Below are positions 5,940 through 27,633 of a stretch of 64,000 nucleotides of DNA, one piece after another. Source of the DNA: Chondrocystis sp. NIES-4102 (GTDB lineage Bacteria; Cyanobacteriota; Cyanobacteriia; Cyanobacteriales; Xenococcaceae); contig AP018281.1 in assembly GCA_002368355.1 (NCBI GenBank), forward strand, positions 1,240,001 through 1,304,000. The letters are read 5' to 3'. Position 1 is the first letter of the stretch. Each line of letters starts with the position of its first letter. The notes below the pieces were generated by a model. The model ran no database searches. It had not been told where the DNA came from and was given only the letters and a program-made list of their open reading frames with translations. The position numbers and the translations under genes were made by a program.

Positions 5940-8099
5940 TTACAATGTTTCTGTAGAAATAACTCCTAATAGTTTCAGATTAAGATTCTTGATCTGATTT
6001 AAAGCTTGGGTAACTAACGATTTCTTAGTTCGACCAATTGTTACTGTCATCAAAAGACCATCAGTATGAGCAGCCAAAAAGCTAGTATCCATGTTATTCA
6101 AAATAGGAGGAGTATCATAGATAACCAAGTCATATACTTGCTCAAATTCTTTAATTAACTTCTCCATGCGATTAGAAGTTAGCAGTTTAGAGAAGTTTAA
6201 TGGTACTTGTCCAGAAGTAAGAACAGAAAGATTATTATCGGGCGATCGCTGAATAACTTCCTGCCAATCTGTTTGTTCAGCAAGTAAATTACTTAAACCA
6301 ACTTGATTGGGTAAATTACATTGTACATGGAGTTGTGGCTCTAATAAGTTAGCATCTACCAATAATACTTTTTGACCTGTAGCAACAGCAGTTTCTGCTA
6401 AATTCCAAGCAATTGGCAATTGCTCATCTCCTTTGATGGCTGAAGAAACTACTAAAGATCGAATAGGTGGCTCAGTAAAGCGCAATCTTAAATTAGCGTA
6501 GAGAGATTTAAAAGATTCTAAAACAGGTTTACTATAGTGATCTGGAGCTTCAACTAATAAGTTGGATTGAGGTAATAATTTGGGAGTCTCTTCCCAAGTA
6601 ATAGTTTCCAATAAAGGAGACTTAATTATATCTTCAATATCTTCGGCCGAATAAAATGTATTGTGAAATTTTTCCAAAAAGGCTGTAGCTGCTACCCCAG
6701 CCAACAAACCCCCAATTAAAGCAGCTAGTAATTTTTTCTCTGAAGTCATGGAAACTGAGGCTAAATTACCATCCTCATCCTTAGCTAACTGGGGTTGTGA
6801 TACTATTTCCCAGGGAATTTCGCTTTGAGCTAATTCCACACTTAAATTATCTTTTTGGGTCAAAAGTTGTTGTAAGGTTTGACTTGCGATCGCTAATTCC
6901 TGTTGTAATTTGGTGTATTGACGTGAAATTTGGGGAATTTTAAGTGCTTGTTGTTCGTATTGAGAAATTGTTGTTGTCAGATTTTGATTTTGAACTTCTA
7001 AAAGTTTAATTTGAGTAATGGCATCAACTAATTGCTGAGTCATACCTGAAAGAATTGTATTCTGCAAGTTAAGCAAAGGTGAATTACTAAAACCAACTGA
7101 AGACTGTCCGCCTAAAATTCGCTGTTTTTCTTTAGTTAATAGATTAAGTAAATTAGCTTTTTTATCCTCTAATTTTTGAATAGTAGGAGTATTACTTTCA
7201 AAACGTGCAGATTCTAAGGATATCTCACTTTCTATTTCCTTATATTTTTGTAGCAAGGACTGATAATTGGGATCTTCACTTAAAGTTGAAACAACAATTG
7301 CTTCAGATGGATTAATCTTTAACTGTTGTTGTAAACTATTTTTAAGTGCTTTTTGCTTATTTAGTTCATTTTGAGTTTCTATTTGTTGAGCTTTAAGTAA
7401 ACTAATTTGCTCTAATAAGTCTTGCCCTTTAGTTTGGGGATCTATTAATTGGTTTTGTTCCTGTAAAGTTTGTAGATTCACTTGTAAAGTGTTAACTCTA
7501 CTGTACAGTTCAGGTAATTGTTTCTCAATAAATTCAACTCCCTGTCCAATACGAGATTTACGTTCTTCTAAGGAATACTGTAAATATTTTTGCGAAATCT
7601 CTCCTAAGACCAATTCTACTAATTCGGGATCATCATGTTGGTAAGTTACTTTAATAATTTTGGTTTGATCCGCCCTAGTTGTCCCAATTCTCTCAATTAC
7701 TAAATCTTCCGTAAGTTTTTCTATAGTAATTTCAGGATATTTTGTTTTAATTTTATCTACCACAGGAGACAGCATTTTGGGGCTTTTCAATAAAGCAATA
7801 ATCGTTGAATAATCCATCTCTAATTGCTTAGTATTGATCTGTTTGCTTGACCCTGTTAGGTTACTAGGTTCTGCCAATCTCGCTTCTGAGCTTACTGGTT
7901 CTACTAATAGTTGAAACCCACCTTCATATATAGGTGTATGATTACGATTACTTACCCAAACTATACCAGTAACTATTCCAGCAATGCCAATTATAGGCAT
8001 TATATTTCTTTTAATAGTTCTTAAAAAAGAGGTGAAGTTTAATTCAGGTTGAACAGGGATAATTAACTCTTCTTCGCCAGCACTTATTAGTTTTTGCAT
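5940..8099 (-). CDS. Wzc-like polysaccharide co-polymerase, no P-loop
   Basis: Inner-membrane protein of the Wzz/BY-kinase family (719 residues) that governs chain length and export of extracellular polysaccharide. It has an N-terminal membrane helix (about 32-50), a Wzz domain, long periplasmic coiled coils (about 180-430), a second helix (about 455-475) and a cytoplasmic kinase-like domain. In that domain Walker A', VLLVDANLLEP, and a Walker B, DLVIYDTPP, are visible. The P-loop, normally PGEGKST, reads KGDEQLP near residue 555, with no GK[ST], and there is no C-terminal Tyr cluster. It is probably a pseudokinase serving structurally. The neighbouring flippase, polymerase and glycosyltransferases support a Wzx/Wzy-type system. 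Confidence 0.9.
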   Translation of the reverse strand: MQKLISAGEEELIIPVQPELNFTSFLRTIKRNIMPIIGIAGIVTGIVWVSNRNHTPIYEGGFQLLVEPVSSEARLAEPSNLTGSSKQINTKQLEMDYSTIIALLKSPKMLSPVVDKIKTKYPEITIEKLTEDLVIERIGTTRADQTKIIKVTYQHDDPELVELVLGEISQKYLQYSLEERKSRIGQGVEFIEKQLPELYSRVNTLQVNLQTLQEQNQLIDPQTKGQDLLEQISLLKAQQIETQNELNKQKALKNSLQQQLKINPSEAIVVSTLSEDPNYQSLLQKYKEIESEISLESARFESNTPTIQKLEDKKANLLNLLTKEKQRILGGQSSVGFSNSPLLNLQNTILSGMTQQLVDAITQIKLLEVQNQNLTTTISQYEQQALKIPQISRQYTKLQQELAIASQTLQQLLTQKDNLSVELAQSEIPWEIVSQPQLAKDEDGNLASVSMTSEKKLLAALIGGLLAGVAATAFLEKFHNTFYSAEDIEDIIKSPLLETITWEETPKLLPQSNLLVEAPDHYSKPVLESFKSLYANLRLRFTEPPIRSLVVSSAIKGDEQLPIAWNLAETAVATGQKVLLVDANLLEPQLHVQCNLPNQVGLSNLLAEQTDWQEVIQRSPDNNLSVLTSGQVPLNFSKLLTSNRMEKLIKEFEQVYDLVIYDTPPILNNMDTSFLAAHTDGLLMTVTIGRTKKSLVTQALNQIKNLNLKLLGVISTETL

Positions 8100-8616: not shown

Positions 8617-8757
8617 TTATTTTGGAGTAACTAACAATTTTTGCGCTACTACTTTATCGCTACTTTGAGATGTATTTTTATCGGGCTTTAGGTATAAAGG
8701 AATGTTTTTACATTCTTCAAGTTTGGGAGCTACATATTTCTTTTTAGTTTTACTCAT
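8617..8757 (-). CDS. 46-residue peptide with YxxPxL leader motif; RiPP precursor candidate
   Basis: A small ORF with a ribosome binding site (AGAGG, about 10 bases before ATG) starts 57 bp downstream of the GT2-PqqD gene on the same strand, so the two are likely cotranscribed. It begins with a basic run, MSKTKKK, then YVAPKL (residues 8-13). This fits the YxxPxL motif that RRE/PqqD-like domains bind in lasso-peptide leaders. The remainder is polar, with one Cys (16), a Ser/Thr/Gln patch (29-33) and a Lys-rich end. No Gly or Asp/Glu arrangement of a classic lasso core is obvious, and no lasso cyclase or protease gene is nearby. A RiPP-like or otherwise modified peptide is an inference from motif plus context. 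Confidence 0.6.
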   Translation of the reverse strand: MSKTKKKYVAPKLEECKNIPLYLKPDKNTSQSSDKVVAQKLLVTPK

Positions 8758-8814
8758 AAAAGGTTTACCTCTAGTTATTTCAAAAAAAAGTTTATTTAAT
8801 AATTATCAAGAACT

Positions 8815-10371
8815 TTAAACAGCAATTTCATTATTAACTTCAATCAAATCTTTAATGGCTAGCTGTTCTATAATAGCGAAAAGATCATTGAGACATATCT
8901 CTGGTGTAACGGCATATTCTTGTACAATAGATTCACAAAGATATCCAATAGTTTGGGGTTTTTGTATTAAATTCCAAATAAATATGCCAACTTCATTTAA
9001 GGTGTAATACGACCCAGTTTGAACATGGAACAAAATTGCCTCATCTTCATTAGCAATTGGCGATAAGACTTGCTCTTTTATTGCACATATATTAGAAGAT
9101 AAAGAAAAACCAGGTTTTATAAAATCTGCAATCGGTGCTAAATTAGGTGATTGATTAGGATTGAGATCACGATCTGTACGTATCCATGCTTGTTGAGGTT
9201 TAATCAAAAAAGCAAAGTATATAGGGAGTTTCCAGAGAAGATAGAAAGGTATACTTAATAGATTAATTAAAGCAATATCTTGACGAGCAAATTTAAACCA
9301 AGAACCAATAACCGCCAAAAAGATCATTAACCCTGTAATTATAGACAAAATACTAATAGTCCAGTATTGTTGCCAAAAGCCGATAAATAAACCAGCAACA
9401 AGAGTAATTAACCAAGCTATTGACAATAAAGATAAAGGAGGAATACACAAATCAAAAGCGATCGCTAGTAATTCAAAGCGTCTTTGTATGATGGCAGCTT
9501 TAATAAGTCTGGGAACTTGAGTTTTTAAAGTTTGCAAGTGTCCATGTATCCACCTAACTTTCTGACTCTTTGCTGCTTGTTCTTTCTGTGGTAAAAATCC
9601 TGTAACTTTACCTTGGGGACAAAATAAAGGATTATTGCCAGCGATCGCGAGATCTATTCCTAACTGCATATCTTCCACAATATTATTAGTAGCTAAAGGT
9701 GCTTGACTAATCACAGACCAGGGAAAAGCTGTTCCCATCGTTAATAAACAAGGTAATCCTAACCAATGTAATCCTGTTGGACGCACAAGGTTTTTAACCG
9801 TAAATGCTAGTGCAGAAATAACGCTTTTAGGATTAGCTTTAGCTGGTTGATGCAGAATATTAATTGGCTGAACAGGACGACCTGAAATTTTGGCCAATTT
9901 CGCCAGTTCATCGATTGTACCTGGATGTACATAACAGTCGGCATCAAATACTATGACTACCTCTGGTGGGTTAGGCGCAAGAAATCTTAATCCATAATCT
10001 AGGGCATATCCTTTACCTTTTTCTTGATTATTAAATCTTTCAAGCACCGTTACCTCAAATTGACGACATATGTCTGCGGTGCGATCGCTACAGTTATCAG
10101 CAATTACTATTAATTGATCTTGACTAGTTAACTGCGGTAGTAACGTTTTTAAAGTTTGGGCAATTCCGACAGCTTCATTATGGGCAGGAACTAAAATACC
10201 AACACTAGGTCGAGGCTCATTACTATTAGAATATTTATTCTTACTTCTTGCTGGTAAAAGTGCTGCTATACACTCAGCAAATAGTATGATAACCAAAAAT
10301 AATAATACTGAAGTTATTAGTAGAAATACTATTTTATTAAAAACCGTAAATATAGTCAGAATTGCATCCAT
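8815..10371 (-). CDS. Processive GT2 glycosyltransferase fused to a PqqD/RRE-like domain
   Basis: Membrane glycosyltransferase of the cellulose/hyaluronan synthase type (518 residues). An N-terminal helix (13-33) is followed by a GT-A fold with VPAHNE (61-66), FDAD (142-145, metal/donor site), VED (232-234, acceptor base) and QKVRW (270-274, a QxxRW signature). Helices follow at about 305-330, 338-357 and 368-390. Residues 437-513 form an unexpected extra domain: EAILFHVQTGSYYTLNEVG, then IWNL, a helix, and a final LIEV. This is the PqqD pattern, the fold used as a RiPP recognition element. A small peptide gene with a matching leader motif lies 57 bp downstream. Sugar and acceptor are unknown. 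Confidence 0.88.
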   Translation of the reverse strand: MDAILTIFTVFNKIVFLLITSVLLFLVIILFAECIAALLPARSKNKYSNSNEPRPSVGILVPAHNEAVGIAQTLKTLLPQLTSQDQLIVIADNCSDRTADICRQFEVTVLERFNNQEKGKGYALDYGLRFLAPNPPEVVIVFDADCYVHPGTIDELAKLAKISGRPVQPINILHQPAKANPKSVISALAFTVKNLVRPTGLHWLGLPCLLTMGTAFPWSVISQAPLATNNIVEDMQLGIDLAIAGNNPLFCPQGKVTGFLPQKEQAAKSQKVRWIHGHLQTLKTQVPRLIKAAIIQRRFELLAIAFDLCIPPLSLLSIAWLITLVAGLFIGFWQQYWTISILSIITGLMIFLAVIGSWFKFARQDIALINLLSIPFYLLWKLPIYFAFLIKPQQAWIRTDRDLNPNQSPNLAPIADFIKPGFSLSSNICAIKEQVLSPIANEDEAILFHVQTGSYYTLNEVGIFIWNLIQKPQTIGYLCESIVQEYAVTPEICLNDLFAIIEQLAIKDLIEVNNEIAV

Positions 10372-11168
10372 GATCTATGTTTTGCTAAATGATTTGATGT
10401 TCAAGGTTAAAAATTATGATCTTGTGTTTATATGAAATTTAATGAGATTATCATAGACACTCAAAGAATTTACCTATAACAAGTCATTAATTATTCAAGT
10501 TAACTATAATTAGAAATTATAAATAAGCAATTTCTAGTAATAATTATCTAATTTTGAGTTGGTAAATCTGACGCAGGAATATTTTTGATCTACTCGAAAT
10601 ATACAAGAGATTAAGTAACTGATTCAATCTCATGATTTTTTACCCGTAAGCTTTAGGAGTAATCACTGTAGATTTGAAAGAAGATAATGATTAGAGCTTA
10701 TCTCCAGTTATAACTTAAATGACAGTAATATTAATAAAGTTTTTGTGAACAAACATTGTTCCTAATTAAAAATTGTATGAATTAATCACAAAGGCTCAAT
10801 TTATAATTCACATTTCAATAACACATAAATCTATAAAGTCGGTGACTCTAAGTAAAAAGAAGCAAAAAAAACGCCTCTATTAAATATTGAAGTATTGATA
10901 AAGAAAGACGAAATTAGTAAAAATAGGCTTGCTGTATATCAAGAGCAGATGTTATCAATGATCTATGAGAGTTATTAGGTAAATACACAAAAATCAATAG
11001 TTAAATATTCACAGTTTCTTTATTGAATAAAAAGTATCTTATATAACTCTTAACTATTAAATCCTGCTGTTATCTTTCCCTATAAAAAGCAAATTAAATG
11101 CTTACTTAAAGCAATTTGTTGATCCATAAAATACAAAATAATCAATAACACCAAGTGATTTGTTAATT
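10372..11168. other. Divergent AT-rich spacer, no gene seen
   Basis: About 800 bp between the divergent GT2-PqqD and GT4 genes. Only very short open frames occur and none has a ribosome binding site worth naming. Promoters for both directions of the polysaccharide locus should lie here. Confidence 0.5.
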
Positions 11169-12449
11169 ATGAAAATTGCTTATCTAGTTAATCAATATCC
11201 AGCTATTAGCCATAGTTTTATTAGAAGAGAAATTATCGCCTTAGAAACATTTGGTATCAAGGTAGAACGTTTCTCGATACGTAATACATCAGAACTAGTG
11301 GATCAAGCAGATAAATTAGAATGTAATAAAACTCGATTCATTTTAAAAGCTGGAAGCAAAAGTCTATTATCAAATTTACTAATAACCGCAATTACTAGAC
11401 CGCGCCGTTTTTGGCAGACTTTGAAGCTGACACATAAAATTGGTTGGGGTCAGGATAGAGGTTTTTTAATCCATCTAGCTTATTTAGCCGAAGCTTGCCT
11501 ACTCTTGCGTTGGACTAAAGAGGCAGATATTGCTCATATTCATGCTCATTTTGCTTTCAATCCCACCACAGTAGCCATGCTATGTCATACATTAGGAGGC
11601 CCTACTTACAGTTTTACAGTACATGGCCCAGAAAGTATAGATAGAGCAATTATTTTAGCTTTAGGAGAAAAAATCAAGCGAGCTACTTTTGTTGCAGCAA
11701 TTAGTTCCTATTGCCAAAGTCAACTTTATCGCTGGTGCGATCGCGCTGATTGGTCTAAAATCCAGATAATTCACTGTGGTTTAGATCAACCATTTTTTGC
11801 CGATCCTCCTACACCTGTTCCCCAAAATTCTAGATTCGTCTGTGTAGCAAGACTGAGTGAACAGAAAGGTCATTTCGTGCTTCTAGCAGCAGCTAGTCAA
11901 TTAGCGCAAGCAGGATGGCAATTTAAATTAAATCTAGTAGGCGACGGGCCCCTTAGACCTCAAATTGAGGCAATGATTGTTGAGTATGGATTACAAAAAT
12001 ACGTTGAACTGACTGGTTGGCTAAGTAATTCTCAAGTTCGACAGCAAATTATCGATGCTCAAATCATGGTTTTACCAAGTTTTGCTGAAGGCTTACCAGT
12101 AGTAATTATGGAAGCTTTAGCTTTGGGTCGTCCAGTGATCAGCACCTATATTGCTGGCATTCCTGAATTATTAGAGAACGATGTTTGTGGGTGGTTAGTA
12201 CCCTCTGGTTCGGTTGCAGCTTTAACTAACGCTATGCGTCGTGCTTTAGAGTTATCACCACAACAGCTTGAACAGATGAGTGAAATAGGAGTAGAGAGAG
12301 TCAAGCAACAACACAACGTCCTGATAGAAGCCCAAAAGCTCGCCAATCTTTTCCAACAAACTGCCGAAGGATCTGTGGTTCAAGCAGCTATACCGATGTT
12401 CAATCCCAATAATCAGGCAAAGACTATTTATATAGCTAGTGAGAGTTAA
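11169..12449 (+). CDS. GT4 family glycosyltransferase
   Basis: GT-B-fold enzyme adding a sugar to the lipid-linked repeat unit at the cytoplasmic membrane face. The N-terminal domain begins MKIAYLVNQYPAISHSFI, typical of GT4 enzymes of exopolysaccharide loci. The C-terminal domain has FVCVARLSEQKGH and the nucleotide-sugar EX7E motif in EGLPVVIMEALALGRPV. The ATG at 11169 is preferred over an in-frame TTG nine bases earlier. The next gene starts 7 bp after the stop, so the two form an operon. The sugar cannot be deduced. Confidence 0.92.
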   Translation: MKIAYLVNQYPAISHSFIRREIIALETFGIKVERFSIRNTSELVDQADKLECNKTRFILKAGSKSLLSNLLITAITRPRRFWQTLKLTHKIGWGQDRGFLIHLAYLAEACLLLRWTKEADIAHIHAHFAFNPTTVAMLCHTLGGPTYSFTVHGPESIDRAIILALGEKIKRATFVAAISSYCQSQLYRWCDRADWSKIQIIHCGLDQPFFADPPTPVPQNSRFVCVARLSEQKGHFVLLAAASQLAQAGWQFKLNLVGDGPLRPQIEAMIVEYGLQKYVELTGWLSNSQVRQQIIDAQIMVLPSFAEGLPVVIMEALALGRPVISTYIAGIPELLENDVCGWLVPSGSVAALTNAMRRALELSPQQLEQMSEIGVERVKQQHNVLIEAQKLANLFQQTAEGSVVQAAIPMFNPNNQAKTIYIASES

Positions 12450-12456
12450 TAATTAT

Positions 12457-13803
12457 ATGACATCAGCTTCTGTCCACAAACAAGCTATCAACGGTACGAT
12501 CTGGACTATGGCTGGATATGGGATGAGCCAAGCCTTAAGACTGGGTAGCAATCTGATTTTAACTCGCCTTTTAGTTCCAGAACTTTTTGGACTAATGGCT
12601 TTAGTAAATGTATTTATCATCGGTTTAACTTTATTTTCCGACATTGGTATCCGTCCTAGTATTATTCAAAATAAGCGGGGAGACGAACCGATTTTTCTCA
12701 ATACTGCCTGGACAATACAGATAATTCGCAGTGTTGGTATTTGGCTTGGATGCCTACTTATTGCTTTTCCAGTGGCAAAATTCTACGGTGAACCTAGATT
12801 GACTTGGTTAATTCCTATAGTTGGGTTTAATACTGTTATTTTAGGTTTTAGTTCTACTAGCCTGGCTAGTTTAAGTCGCCATTTAGAAATTGGTAAACTT
12901 ACCATTTTTGAAATTATCACTCAGTCTATTTCTTTAGTGGTAGTGCTTGTCTGGTCATGGTTTAACCCCACAATTTGGGCGTTAGTGGTAGGTAATCTAG
13001 TTTCAGCACTTAGTATTGTGGCATTGAGTCATCGTCTTAATACAGGAGAACCTAATACTTTTGCTTGGAATAAAGAAGTAATTAAAGAAATTACAACCTA
13101 TGGTAGATGGATTATGGTTTCCACAGCCATGACATTCTTATCCTCTCAAACAGACCGTTTAATCTTAGGCAAGATGTTGACTTTGGAGATGTTGGGGATC
13201 TACACGATCGCTTTTACTATTTCGGAAATTCCTAGACAAATAGTTATTAAGATAGGTTCTGCGGTAATTTTTCCCATCATTTCTCGACAGATAGATTGCC
13301 CACGTCCAGAATTACGAAGCAAGATTAAGAAGCAACGTTGGCGACTGCTGCTAGTTTTGGCATTGATTATGGTAGTGATTGTCAGCTTTGGGGATCTATT
13401 AATCTCAAAATTATACGATGAAAGATATCTAGCAGCTACCTGGATGCTACCTATTCTGGCGATCGGAATTTGGCCTATTGTCCTTTCAGAAACCTTGGGT
13501 CGTTGTCTTCATGGTTTAGGGAAACCGCAATACGCAGCTTGGGGATCTTTTTGTCGCTTTTTGTTTATTGCCATTGGTTTGCCCCTAGGATTTTCTCAAA
13601 TGGGTATTTTAGGAGCATTAATTGTAATTTCCCTTAATGATATTCCCACTTATTTAATTGTTAGTTATGGTTTGTGGCGAGAAAAACTACTTTGTCTCCA
13701 ACAGGATTTTATAGCAACATCTGTATTTTTGGGATTGGTGATTATGATGTTTTTAGTTCGCTCTCTTATCGGTATAGACCTCCCTATTATCGATATTACT
13801 TAA
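12457..13803 (+). CDS. Polysaccharide flippase, Wzx type
   Basis: Multi-pass membrane protein of the MOP flippase superfamily (448 residues from this ATG). It would move lipid-linked repeat units across the inner membrane. The start fits the family, with a helix rich in small residues (INGTIWTMAGYG), then the ILTRLLVPELFGLMALV stretch typical of polysaccharide transporters. About 12 to 14 hydrophobic segments run to the end. A GTG at 12439 overlapping the GT4 gene is in frame, but the ATG 7 bp after that gene is the simpler start. Its partner is the Wzy-like gene at 14510. Confidence 0.92.
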   Translation: MTSASVHKQAINGTIWTMAGYGMSQALRLGSNLILTRLLVPELFGLMALVNVFIIGLTLFSDIGIRPSIIQNKRGDEPIFLNTAWTIQIIRSVGIWLGCLLIAFPVAKFYGEPRLTWLIPIVGFNTVILGFSSTSLASLSRHLEIGKLTIFEIITQSISLVVVLVWSWFNPTIWALVVGNLVSALSIVALSHRLNTGEPNTFAWNKEVIKEITTYGRWIMVSTAMTFLSSQTDRLILGKMLTLEMLGIYTIAFTISEIPRQIVIKIGSAVIFPIISRQIDCPRPELRSKIKKQRWRLLLVLALIMVVIVSFGDLLISKLYDERYLAATWMLPILAIGIWPIVLSETLGRCLHGLGKPQYAAWGSFCRFLFIAIGLPLGFSQMGILGALIVISLNDIPTYLIVSYGLWREKLLCLQQDFIATSVFLGLVIMMFLVRSLIGIDLPIIDIT

Positions 13804-14509: not shown

Positions 14510-15907
14510 ATGAGTCTTCAAGCACAATTTGTAATCATTGCCTGGATACCCTTGGTTTTTTATATATTTAAAATTTATCCCCCTTCTAAGGCAGTATTGA
14601 TTAGTTTTATTTTAGGTTGGTTATTCTTACCTCAAGGAGTAGAATTTTCTTTACCTCTAATTCCAAACTACAATAAATTATCTGCCATCAGTTACCCCAT
14701 TTTACTTGCCAGCTTTTTATTTGATAATCAACGTTTTCGGTCTTTTAAATTCGGTTGGTTAGATTTACCAATGACAATATGGTGTATTTGCCCTTTGGCT
14801 TCTTCACTTAGTAATGAATTAGGTATATATGATGGTTTAGTTGCATCTTTAACGGTAACTGTCATCTATGGCGTTCCTTTTTTCATTGGTAGGATGTATT
14901 TCAATACATTGACAGGAATGCGTCAGTTAGCGATAGGGATTTTCCTAGGTGGCTTGGTTTATGTACCCTTATGCTTATTAGAAATTGCCATTAGCCCTCA
15001 ACTACATCGCCTAGTTTATGGTTATCACGGTAATAAAGATTTTGTTCAATCATTACGATACGGTGGCTATCGACCTACTGTATTTATGCAGCATGGTTTG
15101 AGTGTGGGTATGTGGATGATGGCTGCTACATTGATCGCTATCTGGTTATGGCAAGCTAAAGTCATTAATAATCTTGCAGGTTTACCTGTTGTCTGGTTTG
15201 TACCTATTTTATTAATCACATTTGTCTTACTTAAGTCCACTGGTGCATATATCTACTTAATTTACGGAGTAGTTATTTTGATCACTGCCAAATGGTTGCG
15301 AACAAGTCTACCTTTATTAGTCTTGATCACTATGATTTCTGCTTACATATTAATGGGAGCAACTGGTATTTTCACAGCAGAACAGTCAAACAAGATCGTT
15401 ACAGTTGCTAAAGACATCGCAGGAGAAGATAGAGGGGCATCTTTAGAATTTAGATTAGATAACGAAGAGCTTCTAGGGGAAAAAGCTAGACAGAAGATGA
15501 TTTTTGGGTGGGGAGGATGGAATCGTAACCGAGTTTTTGACTATAACTACGAAGGAGATCTTGTAGATACCACAATTACAGATAGCCTCTGGATTTTAGC
15601 TTTTGGTATGAATGGCTTGGTTGGGTTAATCGCAATTTTCAGTGCTTCATTATTGCCAGCATTAACTTTCTTTACCTCATGTTATCCGTCCCCTTATTGG
15701 TTTCATCCCAAAGTAGCACCAGCAGCAATGCTAGCTAGCACCACAACTTTATATATGCTCGACTGTACTTTAAATAATCTACCAAACCCCATATTTACAT
15801 TGGCATCGGGAGGTATAGCAGGATTAGTGTTGAGACAGTCTTATCTAAAACATTCAAACAATCAACGATTACCAATCACAAGTCAAGTTCGTAATATTCA
15901 AACATAG
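14510..15907 (+). CDS. O-antigen ligase/polymerase-like membrane protein (Wzy-like)
   Basis: A 465-residue protein with about ten or more hydrophobic segments and a larger hydrophilic loop around residues 295-355. That loop contains an Arg/Glu-rich part and a GWGGWNRNRVFDYN stretch. This topology and the loop with W-G-R motifs match Wzy polymerases and WaaL-type ligases, which share one fold and are hard to separate by eye. In this locus, next to Wzx and a Wzc-like protein, polymerisation of repeat units in the periplasm is the natural role. Sulfotransferases follow downstream. Confidence 0.8.
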   Translation: MSLQAQFVIIAWIPLVFYIFKIYPPSKAVLISFILGWLFLPQGVEFSLPLIPNYNKLSAISYPILLASFLFDNQRFRSFKFGWLDLPMTIWCICPLASSLSNELGIYDGLVASLTVTVIYGVPFFIGRMYFNTLTGMRQLAIGIFLGGLVYVPLCLLEIAISPQLHRLVYGYHGNKDFVQSLRYGGYRPTVFMQHGLSVGMWMMAATLIAIWLWQAKVINNLAGLPVVWFVPILLITFVLLKSTGAYIYLIYGVVILITAKWLRTSLPLLVLITMISAYILMGATGIFTAEQSNKIVTVAKDIAGEDRGASLEFRLDNEELLGEKARQKMIFGWGGWNRNRVFDYNYEGDLVDTTITDSLWILAFGMNGLVGLIAIFSASLLPALTFFTSCYPSPYWFHPKVAPAAMLASTTTLYMLDCTLNNLPNPIFTLASGGIAGLVLRQSYLKHSNNQRLPITSQVRNIQT

Positions 15908-16022: not shown

Positions 16023-16982
16023 ATGAATACTCAAGATACTTTTATTAAACAACCGATTTTTTTAGTAGGTGCAGAACGTTCAGGTACAACACTCCTAAGA
16101 CTAATGTTAGATAATCATCCTAATTTAGCTTGGTGCTATGAATTTGAGTATGCAGTTGACTTAATCCCAGATGACAACAATTGTTGGCCAGAATTGGGGC
16201 AATATTATCAATGGCTAGAAACTCATCGAACTTTTCAATCGACTGGTTTTACTATAGATTCGACTTTAGATTATCCATCATTGATTAACAGTTTTTTGTT
16301 GCAAAAACAAGATAAAGCAAAAAAATTACTAGTGGGAGCAACTGTTCACCGTCATTTCCATAGATTATTAAGAATATGGCCCGATGCCCGCTTTATTCAT
16401 ATTATTCGTGATGGTCGAGATGTAGCTCGCTCGTGTATTGGTATGGGCTGGACTGGAAATGTCTGGACAGGAATAGAACAGTGGTTAGAAGCTGAAACTC
16501 TATGGAATGAATTAGAAAAGCAATTACCTCCTAATCAAAGAATGAATTTGACTTATGAAGAATTAATTTTAGATCCAGTTAAAACCTTGAAGCAAATATG
16601 TAATTTCATTGGTATTGAGTATGACGAGGCAATGCTTAGTTATCCACAAACTACTACCTATAGTCTTCCTGATCCTAAAATGATCGAACAATGGAAACGT
16701 AAAATGTCTAAGCATGATGTTCAGTTGGTTGAGTCTCGAATCGCTAGTATACTTGTGGAGCGTGGGTATAAATTGAGTGGATTACCCCCATTGAAGGTTA
16801 ATTTCCTCATGAGGCAAAAAATTAAATTACAAGATTGGTGGTATCGTATTCAATTTCGCATCAATTTATATAGTTTTCCTTTATTTTTATCAGATTTTTT
16901 TGCCCGACACCTAAGACTTTATCAGTGGCAAAAGTCAATTAAATTAAAACTCAATGCGATCGAAAATGCGCAGCTTAAATAA
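16023..16982 (+). CDS. Sulfotransferase, first of a tandem pair
   Basis: PAPS-dependent sulfotransferase (319 residues, cytoplasmic). The 5'-phosphosulfate loop is GAERSGTTLLR (residues 16-26). The 3'-phosphate motif is FIHIIRDGRDVARSCI, about residues 130-145. Its closest relative here is the next gene, of identical length and alignable end to end, with shared blocks such as TYSLPDP and a GYKLSG near the C-terminus. Placement between a polymerase and glycosyltransferases suggests sulfation of the exopolysaccharide. Sulfation of a lipid or small molecule cannot be excluded. Confidence 0.9.
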   Translation: MNTQDTFIKQPIFLVGAERSGTTLLRLMLDNHPNLAWCYEFEYAVDLIPDDNNCWPELGQYYQWLETHRTFQSTGFTIDSTLDYPSLINSFLLQKQDKAKKLLVGATVHRHFHRLLRIWPDARFIHIIRDGRDVARSCIGMGWTGNVWTGIEQWLEAETLWNELEKQLPPNQRMNLTYEELILDPVKTLKQICNFIGIEYDEAMLSYPQTTTYSLPDPKMIEQWKRKMSKHDVQLVESRIASILVERGYKLSGLPPLKVNFLMRQKIKLQDWWYRIQFRINLYSFPLFLSDFFARHLRLYQWQKSIKLKLNAIENAQLK

Positions 16983-17013
16983 CACAATATAACTTCTTAT
17001 TAATTTAAATTTT

Positions 17014-17973
17014 ATGCCAACAAACACTTCTACAATTGAACAACCAATTTTTATTATCGCGTCAGGGCGATCGGGGTCAACTCATTTAAGGTTAATGTTA
17101 GATAATCATTCCCAATTAACTTGTTTAGATGAAATTGACTATACTGTGCAACTAATTTCAGATACTGGAGAATTCCCTCAACTAGAACAATATTATGATT
17201 GGTTAGAGAGCGATCGCATATTTGCTGAGAGAAATTTAACTATTGATCGTAATTTAGATTATCCTCAATTAGTCAAAAGTTTTTTAGCACAAGAATCCCA
17301 GCGATATGGCAAAACTTTTTTATGTGCAGTCAGTCATAAAAATTTTGATAAACTCTTAAAAATTTGGCCTAACGCTCTTTTCATCCATTTAGTTCGTGAT
17401 GGTCGAGATGTCGCTTATTCCTGTATTACTGAAATGGGGTGGTATGGAAATTTTTGGCACAGTGTTGAATATTGGGAGAAATCTGAACAACTATGGACAG
17501 AAATGGTAAAAGTTATCCCGATAAATCAAAGATTAGAAATTACTTACGAAAGTCTAATTAGTAAAACTGTAGAAACACTTACTCAAGTATGCAATTTTAT
17601 TGGTATTACTTACGAGCAGGCAATGCTTACTTACCATCAAACCAGCACCTATAGTTTACCTGATCCCAGTTTTATTGGACAGTGGCGCAGCAAAATGTCT
17701 CAACATGATATTCAGTTAGTTGAAGCTCGTATTGCAGAGATATTAATTTTACGAGGTTATAAACTCAGTGGTTTCCCACTACTCAAGGTAAATCCAATTA
17801 TGAAACAATGGTTCAGATTACAAAATTGGTGGAAGCTGATGCAGTTACGTATAGATAGATATAGTCTGCCTTTGTTTTTATCAGATTATTTATCACGCCA
17901 CTTAGGATTAAAACAGTGGCAAAAGTCTATCAGATTACAACTTCATACTATTGAAAATGCCCATCTGAAATAG
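17014..17973 (+). CDS. Sulfotransferase, second of a tandem pair
   Basis: Paralogue of the preceding gene, starting 31 bp after it and also 319 residues long. The 5'-phosphosulfate loop is ASGRSGSTHLR (residues 16-26); the RDGRDVAYSCI motif binds the 3'-phosphate. Differences cluster in the acceptor side, for example the segments after residue 37 and around 90-115. The pair may therefore sulfate different positions or sugars after a duplication. Both loops look intact, so there is no sign of decay. Confidence 0.9.
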   Translation: MPTNTSTIEQPIFIIASGRSGSTHLRLMLDNHSQLTCLDEIDYTVQLISDTGEFPQLEQYYDWLESDRIFAERNLTIDRNLDYPQLVKSFLAQESQRYGKTFLCAVSHKNFDKLLKIWPNALFIHLVRDGRDVAYSCITEMGWYGNFWHSVEYWEKSEQLWTEMVKVIPINQRLEITYESLISKTVETLTQVCNFIGITYEQAMLTYHQTSTYSLPDPSFIGQWRSKMSQHDIQLVEARIAEILILRGYKLSGFPLLKVNPIMKQWFRLQNWWKLMQLRIDRYSLPLFLSDYLSRHLGLKQWQKSIRLQLHTIENAHLK

Positions 17974-20534: not shown

Positions 20535-21671
20535 ATGCTCAATTACAATCCTATCAACACAAATGGCTTCGATTTTATCGAGTTTACCAGCAAATCGCCA
20601 CAAGAACTAGTGGATCTTTTTACTAAATTTGGTTTTGTAATTACTCGTCGTCATGTCCATAAGAATCTTCTATTACTAGAACAAGGCGAAATTAAATTTC
20701 TGATCAATTCAGAACCTCAGACACAAGCTGCTGCTTTTGAAGCAATACATGGATCAGGTATTTGTGGGATGAGTTTTAGAGTTGCCAATTCCCAGTTGGC
20801 TTTACAAGAAGCAGTTAAACGGGGAGCTAAAGCAGTTACTAGTAATGACTACGATTTACCAGCTATTGAAGGGGTAGGTGGGTCAAAAATTTACCTAATA
20901 GACGAACAAACTTCTGAAGCATTTTTTGCTAAAACTTTTGAATTCACAGGTCAAGAGCCACTTGCTCAACCAATCCTTACTTATATTGACCATCTAACTC
21001 ACAATGTCTTCCGAGGTAATATGGAAGCTTGGGGAAGATTCTACGAACAAGTATTCAACTTCCGCGAAATTCGCTATTTTGATATCAAAGGTAAGCATAC
21101 TGCTTTAACTAGCAAAGCAATTGTCAGTCCTTGTGGTAAGATACGCATTCCTCTTAATGAATCGCAAGACGAATTATCACAAATTGCCGAATTTCTTGAA
21201 CGCTACAATGGCGAAGGCATCCAACATTTAGCCCTAGGCTGTGAAAATATTTATAACGTCATCAGCCAAATTAAAGCAGCAGGGATCGTCTTTCAAGAAA
21301 CCCCTGAAACCTATTACGATTTGATCCCTCAACGTATCCCTCAACATCAAGAGGATATAACTGCTCTTAAAGAGATGAACATCTTAATTGATGGGGAAGG
21401 GTATAGTACATTACTGCAAATCTTCACCAAAGAAATAATTGGCCCTATTTTTTTCGAGTTAATTGAGAGAAAAGGTAATCCAGGGTTTGGAGAAGGTAAT
21501 TTCCAAGCTCTGTTTGAGTCTATTGAGTTAGATCAAATTCGCCGTGGTGTAATTAATGACCAACAAGCCGAAGAATTACAGCCAGTAGCCCAGCAACTCA
21601 AACACCCAATGCTATTGAATAACTCAACAACTAAACCAAAAGTTAGAGCTAAATCTCGTCTCACGGTTTAA
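20535..21671 (+). CDS. hppD: 4-hydroxyphenylpyruvate dioxygenase
   Basis: Non-haem Fe(II) dioxygenase converting 4-hydroxyphenylpyruvate to homogentisate (378 residues). Two vicinal-oxygen-chelate halves are visible. The iron ligands are H153 (IDHLTHNV), H231 (IQHLALG) and E308 (IFFELIERKG). The N-terminal NPINTNGFDFIEFTS matches the Pseudomonas-type enzymes. The related hydroxymandelate synthase, often paired with NRPS genes, usually replaces the Pro and Asn kept here in IPLNE (P206, N208), so homogentisate formation is favoured. It ends 58 bp before the NRPS gene, and the close run suggests it supplies or modifies a precursor for the NRPS product; this is inference. Confidence 0.88.
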   Translation: MLNYNPINTNGFDFIEFTSKSPQELVDLFTKFGFVITRRHVHKNLLLLEQGEIKFLINSEPQTQAAAFEAIHGSGICGMSFRVANSQLALQEAVKRGAKAVTSNDYDLPAIEGVGGSKIYLIDEQTSEAFFAKTFEFTGQEPLAQPILTYIDHLTHNVFRGNMEAWGRFYEQVFNFREIRYFDIKGKHTALTSKAIVSPCGKIRIPLNESQDELSQIAEFLERYNGEGIQHLALGCENIYNVISQIKAAGIVFQETPETYYDLIPQRIPQHQEDITALKEMNILIDGEGYSTLLQIFTKEIIGPIFFELIERKGNPGFGEGNFQALFESIELDQIRRGVINDQQAEELQPVAQQLKHPMLLNNSTTKPKVRAKSRLTV

Positions 21672-21729: not shown

Positions 21730-24700
21730 ATGAACCAGAATTTACTTCCTGTTTATCGTCATTTTGAACAGTATGCCCAACAGTCTCCTAATTCAGTAGC
21801 AATAACTTTTGCATCCAAGCAAATAACCTACGGAGAATTAAATTTTAAGGCAAATCAGTTAGCCAATTATCTGATTAGTTTAAAAGTTAAACCACAAGAC
21901 TGTATAGGTGTCTTAGTAGAACCAGGATTTGAAATTTTGGTGGCTATTTTGGCAATTCACAAACTTAATGGGATTTATCTACCTATTGATCCAGAATTTC
22001 CCCTTGCTAGAATCAAAAGTATAGTTGAGCAAGCAAAACCAGCGATTATCCTCTGTGCTAGTCAAAAAGGAATTACAGTTGAGACGAGTTTGAGTTCACT
22101 AAATATTAATACTGTTGATTTACCTTCTTTAGATTTATCATCATATGAAACCAATAATCTCAACTATGACTGTCCGCTAGACAGTATTTCTCATATATTT
22201 TTTACTTCAGGAACAACTGGTACTCCTAAAGGTGTAGTTTCATCTCATCAGAATTTAATCCACTATCTATTTTCTGCTCAGGCAAAGTATCATTTTAAGG
22301 CTGAAGATAGTTTCTTATCCGCTACTAGATTCACTTTCAGTATTAGTTTGTTTATGTTGCTATTGCCTCTAGTCTCTGGGGGACGGGTGGAAATGATTAC
22401 CCAAGAGGAATTATTAGAGCCATCATTATTAGCGAAGGCAATTGAGCAGTCAACATTCTTTCATTTGGGGCCAAGTATATTAAGGATCTTCTTAGACTTT
22501 TTAGAGCAACAACCTAAGTTAGAAACACAGAGCAGATTTGCTCATGTAAAACACGCTTCAAGTGGTGGAGATATGATTCCACCTTCAATACTTAACCGCC
22601 TCAATCAAATTTTTACCAATGCCGAAGTATACGCAATTTATGGGTCTAGTGAAATAAGTTGTATGGGGTGTACCTATTTTGTACCTCGTAATTTAAATTT
22701 AAAACAAACTTTAGTAGGAAAGCCTTTTGATAATGTACAGTTACGAGTCTTAGATACTCAACAAAAAGATGTAGCTGTAGGAATTAAAGGTGAGATTTAC
22801 TTTGCTGGGGCTGGAATTACTTCTGGGTATCTAAACCTACCTCAATTAACTCAAGAAAAATATATTTTACTCGATGGTCAACGCTTTTATCGCACAGGGG
22901 ATTTAGGTTGCTTGACTGCTGAGGGAGACTTGCAAGTATTGGGACGTAGTGATTTTCAAGTTCAAATTCGTGGTCAAAGAATTGAATTAGCTGATATTGA
23001 AGCCAATTTAAATTTGCATCCAGGAATTATCAACTCTGTAGTGGTGGCGAAGGAAGACCACAACCAAGAGCAACAGTTAGTAGCCTACTTTATTACAATT
23101 AGAGATTTTAGATTAACTCAACAGGAATTACGGAATTTTCTGGTAGAGCTTCTGCCTCAATATATGATTCCTTCCCAGTTTATTTTGCTAGAACAGTTTC
23201 CTTTAACTTTTAATGGTAAAGTTGACCGTCAGGCATTACAAGCCTTAAAACAAACCAAAACAGAATCTAAGGTTGCTCCACGCAGTGAATTAGAAAAGCA
23301 GCTAGTGAATATTTGGGCTGAGGTGTTACACCTACAAATTGAGGATATCAGTATTGAAGATAACTTTTTTGCTTTAGGAGGGCATTCCCTATTAGCTACT
23401 CAAGTAATTTCTCGTATACGAGATAGTTTGCAAGTAGAAATATCCCTTAGAAGTTTATTTGAGTTGGTTACTATTGCTCAACTTGCTCCAAAAATTGAGG
23501 TAGCTCAAACAGTTAGTAGTTTAGAACCAATTTCTCTTTTAACAGATAGAAGTCAAATGCCTCTATCGTTGGCTCAACAACGACTATGGATTTTATATCA
23601 AATAGAATCACAAAGTTCTGCTTACAATATTCCCTTAGCTTTGGAATTGAAGGGAAAAGTAGATATCAAGATCCTCAAAAGTGCGATCGCTGAAATTGTC
23701 AGTCGTCATGAAGTGTTACGCACTAGAATTCAAGTAATTGAGGAGATTCCTTATCAAGTAGTTGAGCCTGAAGTTACCATTGAACTTGCGATAATTGACT
23801 TGCAAGCTCTACCCGAATTACCCAAGCAAGCAGAATATCAACGTCTAGCAACTATTGAAACAGACCGTTATTTTAATTTAACTGAAGATTTCTTATTACG
23901 TACTACATTGGTGCAATTAACTACTAACACCCAGGTTCTATTAGTGACAATGCACCATATCATTTCCGATGGTTGGTCTTTAGAGGTATTTACTCAAGAA
24001 TTGGCTAGTATTTATACGGCTTTAATGACTCAGCAAGCAATTTCTTTACCATCATTACCTTTTCAATATGGCGACTTTGCTCATTGGCACAGACAATGGT
24101 CAGAATCTACAATATTTTCTACCCAGCTTGCTTATTGGCAGCAACAACTAGCTGCTTTACCAACCTTGTTGGAATTACCAACAGATCATCCTCGTCCTGC
24201 GGTACAATCTTTTTCTGGCAGAATCAAACAGTTTAGTTTAAGTCCTCAACTAAGTAAAAAATTACAACAACTCTCTCAACAAGCTGGGGCAACTCTGTTT
24301 ATGACTTTGTTGACTACCTTTGCTGCTTTATTATCTCGCTATAGTAACTCCCAAGATATTGCGATCGGGTCTCCTATTGCCAATCGTCATCGTCGAGAGC
24401 TTGAATCTTTAATTGGTTTTTTTGTTAACACTTTGGTGTTACGTACTAATTTAGAAGGAAAACCCAGTTTTTGGGAATTATTGGGGCAGGTAAGACAAAC
24501 AACGTTGGATGCTTATGCCAATCAAGATGTTCCATTCGATAAATTAGTAGAAGTATTACAACCTGAACGTAGTCTGAGTCATAATCCACTGTTTCAGGTG
24601 ATGTTTATTTTACAGAATCATACTGCTACAACAAAGGAAATGTGTGATGTTACGGTAACTCCTTTATTGGTGGAACAAGTAACAGCACAATTCGACCTTA

Positions 24701-27633
24701 CTTTGTCAATGACGGAAACCTCTGAAGGATTAACAGGATTTTGGCAATATAACAGTGATTTATTTGAGCCTGAAACTATTGATCGGATGACAGGGCATTT
24801 TGAGATGTTGCTAACAGGTATTACTAATTGTCCAGAACAACCAGTGGCTAACTTACCATTACTAACAACAGTAGAACGTCATCAATTGTTGAACCAATGG
24901 AATGATACTCAAAAAGCATATGCTGATGAGCAATGTATTCATCAACTAATTGAAGCCCAAGTAGCTCGTACTCCTAATGAGATTGCCGTAGTATTTGAAG
25001 ACCAAGAATTAACTTATGCACAGTTGAATTGTAGGGTAAATCAGTTAGCAAGACACTTGCAACAATTAGGGGTTAAGGCAGAAACTCTAGTGGGAGTGAG
25101 TCTTGAGCGATCGCATTTGATGTTGATAGCTCTTTTGGCTGTTCTTAAAGCTGGTGGGGCTTATGTACCTCTAGATCCTAATTATCCTCCTGATCGTTTA
25201 GCTTTGATGGTGGAAGATTCAGAGTTAGCTATTTTATTAACCACACAAGCAAGTGCCAACGTGATCTCTGATTATTCAGGTAAAACGATTTGTTTGGATA
25301 CACAATGGTCTGATATTGCCCTAAATTCGGGGGATAATCTAGCATCCGTAGCCCAGCCTGATAATTTGGCTTATATTATCTACACTTCAGGGTCAACAGG
25401 AAAACCTAAAGGAGTACAACTGGAACATCGAGGTGTTGTTAACTTTTTGCAATCAATGCAAACTGAGCCTGGAATTACTCATAAAGATATTCTTCTAGCT
25501 GTAACTAGTATCTCATTCGATATTGCAGTTTTAGAGTTATTTTTACCCTTAATTGTGGGAGCTAAAGTAGTTATTGCTGCTCAACAAGTAACTGGAGATG
25601 CTTCTCAATTACTAGACTTGATGTTGAATTCTCAAGCGACAATCATGCAAGCCACTCCTGCCACTTGGAGAATGTTAGCTGCTGCTAAATGGGAGGAAGT
25701 TCCAAGGTTAAAAATGCTTTGTGGTGGTGAACCATTAGCACCTGATTTAGCTCAACTAATGCTACAGCGATGTTCTTCGTTGTGGAATGTTTATGGCCCT
25801 ACGGAGGCTACTGTTTGGGCAACAATTCATGAAGTTAAACCAGATTTTGATTTAATTCCTATCGGTCATCCTTTAGCAAATACTCAAGTTCGTATTTTAG
25901 ATGCTCATGGACAGCTATTACCTATTGGTGTAGCAGGAGAAATTCATCTAGGAGGAGTACAATTAGCTCGTGGTTATCTAAATCGTCCAGAATTAACTCA
26001 AGAAAGATTTATTTTTAATGCTACTGACGGTGAGCAGTTGGAGCGATTATATAAAACTGGCGATTTGGGACGTTATCTACCCGATGGCAACGTCGAATGT
26101 TTAGGTCGTATTGATAATCAAGTCAAAATTCGCGGTTTTAGAATAGAACTTGGGGAAATTGAAGCTAATTTAGCCTTACATCCACTGGTGCGTAATTGTG
26201 TAGTTGTAGCAAGAGAAGATGTGCCTGGAGATAAGCGAATAGTAGCTTATATAGTTGCTGAGACAAATTCAATCAAGGGTAAAGAATTACGGCAATTTCT
26301 AGAGCTTTCTTTACCTCACTATATGATTCCCAGTCATTTTGTAATTTTAGAATGCTTCCCTCTGACTCCAAATGGAAAAATTGACCGACGTGCTTTACCT
26401 GCACCATTAACCTCATCCGCGACAGAAATTATTGCTCCACGCAATGAATTAGAGCAAAAATTAGCTGAAATTTGGCAGCAGGTATTAAATGTTGATTCCA
26501 TTAGTGTTACCGATAACTTTTTCGATCTTGGTGGACATTCTCTATTAGCCGTTGCCTTGTTTGAGAAGATAGAGCAAACATTTAAGCGTAAAATACCCTT
26601 AGCAACGCTCTTTAAAGCCCCCACTATAGAGCAGTTGGGAGAAATACTTGGTTCACAAACAAATAATTTTTGGGACTGCTTAGTATTACTTAAGACAGGA
26701 GATTTAACTCTCACTCCTTTATTCTTAATTCACGATGCTGATGGTGAAATCATGCTGTATTCAGGTCTATCAAAATATCTTACAGATAATCGACCTGTAT
26801 ATGGAATTAGACCCTATAGCCGAGAAGGTTTTCCAACTCTGCATACTCGGATTCCTGATATGGCAAATTATTATGTGCAGCAGATACGTAAAGTTCAACC
26901 CCAAGGGCCCTATTTATTGGGTGGTTTATGCGCAGGTGGGGTATTGGCATTTGAAATAGCTTGTCAACTTCAAGCTCAAGGTGAACAAGTTCCTTTTGTC
27001 GGGATTATTGATGCGATCGATGTGGAAGAATTGAATTTCCATGATTATGTTATAACGCATCGGATGAGTAGCCTGTCAGAAGCTATAAGTAAAAAATCTC
27101 AAATGAGTAAAGCAAAGCAAATTATTTATCTGCTTAACACTTTAACTAAGAAACTTAAAAACTTAATAATTTATGAAGCTAGCGTCAAACTTGAGGCAAC
27201 TAAGCAGAAATTAAAAATTATGCTGTTTAGATATTACTTGGATCGGGGATTAAAATTACCTCAATTTTGTCAAAATATTTCCGTCAAAAACATTTATGAA
27301 AAGGCACGGGAAGAATATAAACCACCAACTTTTAGGGGTAAATTAACCCTTTGGCGAGCTATGGGTAATACTAATGCCTATTTACCATTTGACGATACAG
27401 CAGCAATTCTCGTCTCAAAAGATCCTTATTTTGGTTGGGGTAAACGCTCAACTGATGGAGTTGAATCATTTGATGTTCCTGGGGGTCATTCTAGTATGCT
27501 TCAAGAACCTAATGTGCAAATTCTGGCAGAAAAAATGCAAGCTTATATCGATTTTGCCTTAACAGAACAAGAAACTATTGATGGGATAGATGAAGTTGAA
27601 AGCGATCGCTCGTTTGCTAAGACATCTAGATAA
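21730..27633 (+). CDS. Dimodular NRPS: A-PCP-C-A-PCP-TE
   Basis: A 1967-residue nonribosomal peptide synthetase. A1 (about 1-510) has FTSGTTGTPKG; PCP1 carries S553 in LGGHS; C (about 590-1040) has HHIISDG with H743 and D747; A2 (about 1055-1545) has YTSGSTGKPKG; PCP2 carries S1604; the TE (about 1650-1955) has GLCAG, so the nucleophile is C1734 instead of Ser, with GGHSS near the end. In A1 the usual FDxS is FTFS (T202 replaces the Asp that binds the amino group), which points to a non-amino-acid such as an aryl or 2-oxo acid. By-eye alignment of A2 gives D-I-L-Q-L-G-V-V-W, close to glycine codes. The predicted product is an acyl-glycine unit, released or cyclised by the TE. No MbtH-like gene is adjacent. 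Confidence 0.93.
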   Translation: MNQNLLPVYRHFEQYAQQSPNSVAITFASKQITYGELNFKANQLANYLISLKVKPQDCIGVLVEPGFEILVAILAIHKLNGIYLPIDPEFPLARIKSIVEQAKPAIILCASQKGITVETSLSSLNINTVDLPSLDLSSYETNNLNYDCPLDSISHIFFTSGTTGTPKGVVSSHQNLIHYLFSAQAKYHFKAEDSFLSATRFTFSISLFMLLLPLVSGGRVEMITQEELLEPSLLAKAIEQSTFFHLGPSILRIFLDFLEQQPKLETQSRFAHVKHASSGGDMIPPSILNRLNQIFTNAEVYAIYGSSEISCMGCTYFVPRNLNLKQTLVGKPFDNVQLRVLDTQQKDVAVGIKGEIYFAGAGITSGYLNLPQLTQEKYILLDGQRFYRTGDLGCLTAEGDLQVLGRSDFQVQIRGQRIELADIEANLNLHPGIINSVVVAKEDHNQEQQLVAYFITIRDFRLTQQELRNFLVELLPQYMIPSQFILLEQFPLTFNGKVDRQALQALKQTKTESKVAPRSELEKQLVNIWAEVLHLQIEDISIEDNFFALGGHSLLATQVISRIRDSLQVEISLRSLFELVTIAQLAPKIEVAQTVSSLEPISLLTDRSQMPLSLAQQRLWILYQIESQSSAYNIPLALELKGKVDIKILKSAIAEIVSRHEVLRTRIQVIEEIPYQVVEPEVTIELAIIDLQALPELPKQAEYQRLATIETDRYFNLTEDFLLRTTLVQLTTNTQVLLVTMHHIISDGWSLEVFTQELASIYTALMTQQAISLPSLPFQYGDFAHWHRQWSESTIFSTQLAYWQQQLAALPTLLELPTDHPRPAVQSFSGRIKQFSLSPQLSKKLQQLSQQAGATLFMTLLTTFAALLSRYSNSQDIAIGSPIANRHRRELESLIGFFVNTLVLRTNLEGKPSFWELLGQVRQTTLDAYANQDVPFDKLVEVLQPERSLSHNPLFQVMFILQNHTATTKEMCDVTVTPLLVEQVTAQFDLTLSMTETSEGLTGFWQYNSDLFEPETIDRMTGHFEMLLTGITNCPEQPVANLPLLTTVERHQLLNQWNDTQKAYADEQCIHQLIEAQVARTPNEIAVVFEDQELTYAQLNCRVNQLARHLQQLGVKAETLVGVSLERSHLMLIALLAVLKAGGAYVPLDPNYPPDRLALMVEDSELAILLTTQASANVISDYSGKTICLDTQWSDIALNSGDNLASVAQPDNLAYIIYTSGSTGKPKGVQLEHRGVVNFLQSMQTEPGITHKDILLAVTSISFDIAVLELFLPLIVGAKVVIAAQQVTGDASQLLDLMLNSQATIMQATPATWRMLAAAKWEEVPRLKMLCGGEPLAPDLAQLMLQRCSSLWNVYGPTEATVWATIHEVKPDFDLIPIGHPLANTQVRILDAHGQLLPIGVAGEIHLGGVQLARGYLNRPELTQERFIFNATDGEQLERLYKTGDLGRYLPDGNVECLGRIDNQVKIRGFRIELGEIEANLALHPLVRNCVVVAREDVPGDKRIVAYIVAETNSIKGKELRQFLELSLPHYMIPSHFVILECFPLTPNGKIDRRALPAPLTSSATEIIAPRNELEQKLAEIWQQVLNVDSISVTDNFFDLGGHSLLAVALFEKIEQTFKRKIPLATLFKAPTIEQLGEILGSQTNNFWDCLVLLKTGDLTLTPLFLIHDADGEIMLYSGLSKYLTDNRPVYGIRPYSREGFPTLHTRIPDMANYYVQQIRKVQPQGPYLLGGLCAGGVLAFEIACQLQAQGEQVPFVGIIDAIDVEELNFHDYVITHRMSSLSEAISKKSQMSKAKQIIYLLNTLTKKLKNLIIYEASVKLEATKQKLKIMLFRYYLDRGLKLPQFCQNISVKNIYEKAREEYKPPTFRGKLTLWRAMGNTNAYLPFDDTAAILVSKDPYFGWGKRSTDGVESFDVPGGHSSMLQEPNVQILAEKMQAYIDFALTEQETIDGIDEVESDRSFAKTSR

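Follow-up and report, generated by a model that had tools for sequence, protein, structure and literature searches.

In the window, by which we mean the whole 64-kb stretch of DNA that was analyzed, two adjacent genes occupy positions 8617-10371 of the minus strand. The first (8815..10371, minus strand) is a 518-aa ORF for a GT2 glycosyltransferase that carries a C-terminal RRE. Its stop codon is followed, 57 bp downstream, by a 46-codon gene (8617..8757, minus strand) for a precursor-like peptide that we call P0002. An earlier note on this DNA had drawn attention to both genes; its coordinates are correct, and the short downstream gene with its ribosome binding site was confirmed (AGAGGT at 8767..8772, minus strand, as read from the sequence).

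The catalytic region of the glycosyltransferase covers aa 55-277 (9541..10209, minus strand) and matches the Pfam profile Glyco_tranf_2_3 with 61 bits. The ORF and its DAD, VED, and QxxRW motifs bear out the original description of the enzyme as a GT2. These motifs (DxD, ED, and QxxRW) are retained in the window's copy, in the copy from a second genome (G015), and in four aligned homologs that are unfused; the copy from a third genome (G020) is truncated by a contig end and was left out of this comparison. Hydropathy indicates one membrane stretch near the N terminus and a further two or three ahead of the RRE, and a position of the RRE on the cytosolic side of the membrane is plausible.

The RRE itself occupies aa 444-510 (8842..9042, minus strand). 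It covers positions 1-67 of the 67 in the PqqD profile PF05402 and scores 57.9 bits against a Pfam cut-off of 23.4, while the top NCBIfam RRE model is lasso_PqqD_Bac at 52.8 bits, which lies below the cut-off of 80 for that model. By sequence, the closest solved structures are lasso RREs, namely TbiB1 (E 8e-15) and 9x90 (E 4e-14). When an AF2 model of the domain was submitted to Foldseek, the top match was 5v1v, which is TbiB1 with the TbiA leader (E 2.9e-5, TM 0.86 by target length). Thus, the PqqD-type domain that had been claimed for the end of this enzyme stands, and its fold, which had been named as a test, is assigned to TbiB1 by both routes.

The predicted sequence of P0002 is MSKTKKKYVAPKLEECKNIPLYLKPDKNTSQSSDKVVAQKLLVTPK. 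Its leader reads KKKY8VAP11KL13, and the YxxPxL motif in residues 8-13 (8719..8736, minus strand) is exactly the one that had been claimed. The peptide has no match in Pfam or NCBIfam. Homologous ORFs lie in G015 and G020, preceded by the ribosome binding sites AAAGGAGA and AAGGAGA. Across the three peptides, M1, K5-K7, Y8, P11, L13, E15, K17, S30, and L41 are invariant. Ser30 (codon at 8668..8670, minus strand) is the sole hydroxyl residue of the core that aligns as invariant and is thus our candidate sugar acceptor, with a weak match there and a one-residue gap directly before it.

Substitution rates appear to differ along the peptide. Leader columns 1-17 have pN values of 0.17-0.29 and pS values of 0.51-0.62, and columns 18-47 have pN values of 0.38-0.52 and pS values of 0.51-0.71, each from three pairs with few sites. 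By these estimates the leader is constrained and the C-terminal part drifts, as judged from the only three sequences known here, whose cores differ in length and align weakly. Precursors of RiPPs usually show this combination of a kept leader and a drifting core.

Short motifs of this kind also arise by chance. The window has 97 ORFs of 30-75 aa that start with ATG; six of them show the loose pattern [YWF]xxPx[LIVMFA] within their first 20 residues, and P0002 is, by eye, the only one of the six with YxxPxL. In the larger set of 2592 ORFs of 30-75 aa from the window and the fetched loci, which includes real lasso precursors, YxxPxL is present in the first 20 residues of 52. A chance origin of the motif in P0002 is nevertheless untenable, because the peptide is conserved in two further genomes and the motif is retained in all three.

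The RRE very probably binds the leader of P0002. In LppB, which has been studied experimentally, D70 forms a bond to the leader Tyr and N33 one to the Pro kink; the D70A mutation weakens the complex and N33A almost abolishes it (PMC13381572). In our alignment, the fused RREs carry N and D at these two positions. An Asp paired with a Tyr is also the commonest state among lasso RREs, and therefore the Asp match alone says little. An AF2 prediction was made in which the RRE and the peptide form a single chain joined by the read-through spacer, an arrangement that raises local concentration. For the window's chain, mean pLDDT values by block were 83-96 for the RRE and 48-50 for the spacer, and peptide residues 7-16 averaged 91, with a predicted strand at L13-E15 and values of 55-57 for the rest of the peptide. 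The chain from a second species (L063) was modeled less confidently (leader blocks 80 and 73, strand L13-W16), and the leader strand has the same register on the RRE in both predictions. These two runs, each made with the peptide that belongs to the RRE, share alignment rows and so are not independent. The proposal that motif and domain bind each other is thus favored by the model and by the Asn/Asp signature.

Fusion of an RRE to this transferase is rare and was found in few cyanobacteria, all relatives of Pleurocapsa. At E 1e-60 the GT2 is found in 21 of 27 genomes of the family, at 29 listed places, and the RRE is attached in three of the 27 genomes (the window's own, G015, and G020); a match in G008 (L023) ends at aa 222 and is too short for its C terminus to be judged. 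RRE-like matches at E 1e-6 occur in 109 of 388 genomes sampled from the order, and three genomes match the fused profile over its whole length within a single frame. Another genome, G364 (L131), has a frame of 1037 aa whose RRE-like match is weak (31.5 bits). A draw of 388 genomes from the class (E limit 1e-15) yielded 41 genomes with matches and the fusion in the window's own genome only; this draw overlaps the order set, and G015 and G020 are absent from its matches. A search of genome contigs returned 25 loci, among whose readable open frames (that of L075 was excluded) the transferase end is found only in L063, which is Pleurocapsa sp. MO_192.B19 and, by length and sequence, the same contig as in G020. 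In PLSDB, the 15 records listed among 49 match the fused protein to about aa 420 at most, and one of the 49, possibly beyond those 15, covers at least 80% of the query.

The peptide follows the fusion closely. A search of the order's 388 genomes with a profile of the peptide gives three strong matches (E 5e-24 to 3e-28), one in each genome that has the fusion; 133 genomes match at E <=1, and the next best match after these three has an E of 0.008, which is chance level. Among the 29 GT2 places, with flanks of up to 1.5 kb, a KKKY-type ORF accompanies the fused ones alone (three of 29), and chance matches to the motif at the other places bear no resemblance to this ORF. Small ATG ORFs lie within 700 bp downstream at four of 12 unfused loci examined in more detail, and none contains the motif. 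At two of these 12, L194 and L196, the gene order of the window (divergent GT4-Wzx-Wzy and GT2-Wzc) is found without the RRE and without the peptide. Presence of the RRE and presence of the peptide are thus linked. The idea that the peptide is unrelated to the domain was rejected, since the peptide is seen only beside the fusion. The order GT2-RRE, peptide, Wzc is kept at all three fused loci. Conservation of the peptide and its YxxPxL motif beside homologous fused genes, which the earlier note had named as a test, was found in three of three genomes.

The surrounding genes suggest what the transferase might do. Downstream of the peptide gene is a Wzc-type polysaccharide co-polymerase (5940..8099, minus strand), a position it has at each of the three fused loci. 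On the plus strand, a divergent GT4 glycosyltransferase (11160..12449) is 55% identical to MYO_RS16785 (xssI by gene order), and it is followed by a Wzx-type flippase (12439..13803; 59% to its homolog from the synechan cluster) and a candidate Wzy-type polymerase (14510..15907; 49% to MYO_RS16770, xssF by gene order), which has no Pfam or NCBIfam match. Two sulfotransferases of a synechan-like cluster come next (16023..17973; 53% to a sulfotransferase homolog). A homolog of XssM from the synechan cluster also lies near the fusion (59%), and the Wzc is a 31% match to that cluster's Wzc, the names again being given by gene order. Over aa 4-402, the GT2 half shares 46% identity with MYO_RS16815 of the Synechocystis plasmid pSYSM, a gene that we read from its place in the gene order as xssO. 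With such xss-like neighbors, the region around the fusion is a synechan-like sulfated exopolysaccharide locus and the enzyme an XssO-like GT2 with a putative role to match. The pSYSM protein differs in having no RRE, and a small ATG ORF was not found within 700 bp downstream of its gene.

In the synechan system, deletion of xssO left bloom formation intact and little exopolysaccharide accumulated; the pathway is of the Wzx/Wzy type and employs eight transferases, with XssP as the priming one (PMC8205485). This precedent does not support the earlier description of the window's GT2 as processive, because its nearest studied homolog, XssO as named by gene order, is one of those eight. Homologs of Wzx, Wzy, and Wzc adjoin the gene, which favors repeat-unit assembly although QxxRW is present, and we rejected the reading as a processive synthase for this reason.

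The same neighbors bear on whether P0002 might serve as a primer or anchor, such that the peptide, in place of a lipid, carries the growing polysaccharide repeat or chain. The coupling of transferase and peptide fits this idea, as does the lack of any PF02397 priming-type transferase in the window. The six PF02397 matches in the genome, all located elsewhere, could nonetheless act in trans, Wzx, Wzy, and Wzc homologs adjoin as they do in a lipid-linked pathway, and the two syntenic loci manage without a peptide. We therefore consider a priming or anchoring peptide improbable.

The RRE itself is related to those of lasso peptide biosynthesis. In a tree of 91 columns in which many forks are open, the three fused RREs group together in a single clade (100/99), and the rows nearest to it by path are L093 and L092, which are discrete RREs of another family rather than those of the same genomes. 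In 40 regions around other RREs, a lasso cyclase match was found in 32 and a cyclase and/or B2 match in 37; the regions with neither (L109, L125, and L131) include two that are cut by contig ends. The window's locus shares with lasso systems a YxxP-type leader beside an RRE. Indeed, it resembles the lasso pair TbiB1-TbiA (5v1v) in RRE fold, YxxPxL leader, and Asn plus Asp signature, and TbiB1 is also its nearest solved structure, as lasso-type RREs are its nearest neighbors in the tree. It differs in that the RRE is fused to a GT2, the window has no B2 or cyclase match, and the peptides are without G-x5-T.

These differences are supported by several searches. The lasso cluster of the window's own genome (L032) has a cyclase of 849 bits (cut-off 525) and a B2 of 101 bits (cut-off 33). 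The cyclase, B2 protease, and HPr-type kinase of this genome have no match in the 64-kb window (tblastn, E 0.01), and lasso B2 and cyclase have none at E 1e-4 in L089-L091, of which L091 is a 6.6-kb contig. The G-x5-T pattern of cyanobacterial lasso precursors was hit in 64 of 80 discrete RRE loci, with at least one dubious hit, and by eye it is missing after the leader motif in all three peptides. Since neither cyclase nor B2 is matched, the reading of the locus as a lasso cluster was rejected.

A related explanation is that a lasso cluster between the GT2 and Wzc genes lost its protease and cyclase, leaving the fused RRE and the precursor without a job. Such a relic would fit the lasso-type character of the RREs most closely related to the fused one, and also the position of the lasso cluster of the window's own genome beside an ORF that we read as Wzc-like. 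However, the linker and RRE of the two other species are still 53 and 54% identical to those of the window, with 54 of 140 columns invariant, the peptide leader appears constrained, and the ribosome binding sites are kept. A functionless remnant would thus be an unlikely state for this pair.

Alternatively, the true ligand of the fused RRE could be a lasso precursor that is encoded elsewhere and glycosylated in trans. Each of the three genomes with the fusion has a discrete RRE locus in addition: L032 and L114 include both cyclase and B2, and L112 has B2 and no cyclase match. In G020 (L114), the lasso RRE has the Asp and the lasso leader is YNAPKL, nearly the same as that of the fused system, and FusB1, a lasso RRE from outside Bacillota, is promiscuous (PMC13381572). 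We nevertheless give this proposal only a slim chance: a dedicated peptide is encoded next to the fusion in three of three cases, and the lasso pair of the window's own genome combines an FxxP leader with Tyr at the recognition position, where the fused RRE has Asp.

The best single account of the locus, to which we assign a probability of about 0.45, is that P0002 is glycosylated by its GT2-RRE. Fusion, peptide gene, co-conservation, RRE homology, and synteny are observed; glycosylation, its acceptor residue, the cytosolic side, and the fate of the product are inferred. A membrane GT2 of a synechan-like sulfated exopolysaccharide pathway would have gained a lasso-type RRE at its C terminus, along with a dedicated gene for a precursor-like peptide. 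The leader (KKKYxxPxL) would dock on the RRE as an extra beta strand, and the RRE would hold the variable C-terminal part near the active site of the transferase. There, a sugar or short glycan could be placed on a core hydroxyl, with Ser30 as the candidate. The outcome would be a glycosylated peptide whose synthesis, and perhaps also export, uses the exopolysaccharide machinery. Against glycosylation, the window is without matches to a lasso cyclase, B2, or HPr-type kinase, and the lack of B2 leaves no known way to remove the leader. Moreover, the family of the GT2 half has a studied member in a Wzx/Wzy pathway.

The main rival takes up these same points. P0002, bound via the RRE, might be a regulator or tether in exopolysaccharide synthesis: a switch for the transferase, a means of positioning it, or a link between it and Wzc. 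The transferase is, after all, part of a putative exopolysaccharide pathway, no maturation protease or cyclase of the lasso type is matched in the window, and the order GT2-RRE, peptide, Wzc is conserved at three of three loci. Against this, the leader is conserved but the C-terminal part varies in sequence and length, and a regulator would be expected to conserve that part as well. We regard a regulatory or tethering peptide as somewhat unlikely.

Other systems in which an RRE or a GT2 acts on a peptide help to place glycosylation of P0002 by its transferase. The RRE of the mycofactocin system, MftB, is a separate protein, and that system also differs from the present one in its peptide chemistry. 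The likeness lies in MftF, a GT2 that builds on a RiPP an oligosaccharide with as many as nine glucoses (PMC7491314), so glycosylation of a RiPP by a GT2 exists as chemistry. LPP systems of Bacillota share a YxxP leader that is read via RRE residues Asn33 and Asp70, and an exopolysaccharide gene nearby, but have a discrete RRE, an HprK-like kinase, a signal-peptidase-like enzyme (SpI), an NTP transferase, an MsbA-like transporter, and a longer leader motif (PMC13381572). The window's RRE is fused and no HPrK match was found in the window, which sets this locus apart from LPP.

The earlier note knew of no described system of this type, which is too broad. Fusions of an RRE to a glycosyltransferase, the same joining as seen here, are mentioned in the RRE-Finder report of 2020 (PMC7470986) and in its 2025 update (PMC12710340), the latter naming PF00535, and the relevant passages of both give no function. 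We found no recognizable description of an exopolysaccharide transferase with an RRE and a cognate peptide in the literature searched, a body that did not extend to subscription journals, preprints, or supplements; passages of PMC12325987 likewise contain none.

Should P0002 prove to be glycosylated, it would represent a new RiPP type. More specifically, a new peptide class might exist in which an exopolysaccharide glycosyltransferase uses its own RRE to mature a peptide, and in which this peptide serves as carrier, primer, or cap for the glycans of a sulfated exopolysaccharide, a proposal that we regard as doubtful. If the peptide only steers the enzyme, the system would instead be a peptide-gated exopolysaccharide transferase, and to our knowledge there is no earlier example of one. 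The system would connect leader-guided peptide modification with exopolysaccharide assembly, fields that seldom meet. The pairing of an RRE-bearing membrane GT2 with a cognate peptide, set against syntenic relatives that have neither RRE nor peptide, constitutes a clean natural experiment.

Several additional observations were made along the way. Among 80 discrete lasso-type RREs (L032, L092-L130, and L154-L193), the RRE residue equivalent to LppB D70 varies together with the aromatic residue of the leader. The pairings are D-Y at 44 loci (and at four more that have an additional, probably spurious hit), E-W at 11, Y-F at two, and H-Y at one, with E-Y (L177) and D-W (L192, a dubious ORF) as single exceptions; the rule finds no precursor at the remaining 16 of the 80. 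On the tree, each trait changes eight times, and there are five supported independent pairs, of which a mean of 4.7 go in the same direction and 0.0 in the opposite one (median sign test 0.06). A recognition code between RRE residue and leader aromatic in cyanobacteria is thus possible.

Wzc-like genes lie within about 6.5 kb of RRE or lasso loci in six of the 40 regions (L098, L108, L113, L114, L117, and L118), and in a Bacillota genome an exopolysaccharide gene is reported near LPP and lasso clusters (PMC13381572). Farther along the plus strand of the window, a 565-aa ORF (28696-30393) between a GT2 gene and an aldo-keto reductase gene is without a match at E 0.001 in either Pfam or NCBIfam. 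The window also encodes a 1967-aa NRPS (21730-27633, plus strand) with adenylation, condensation, carrier, and thioesterase domains, which is adjoined by a 4-hydroxyphenylpyruvate-dioxygenase-like gene (20535-21671).
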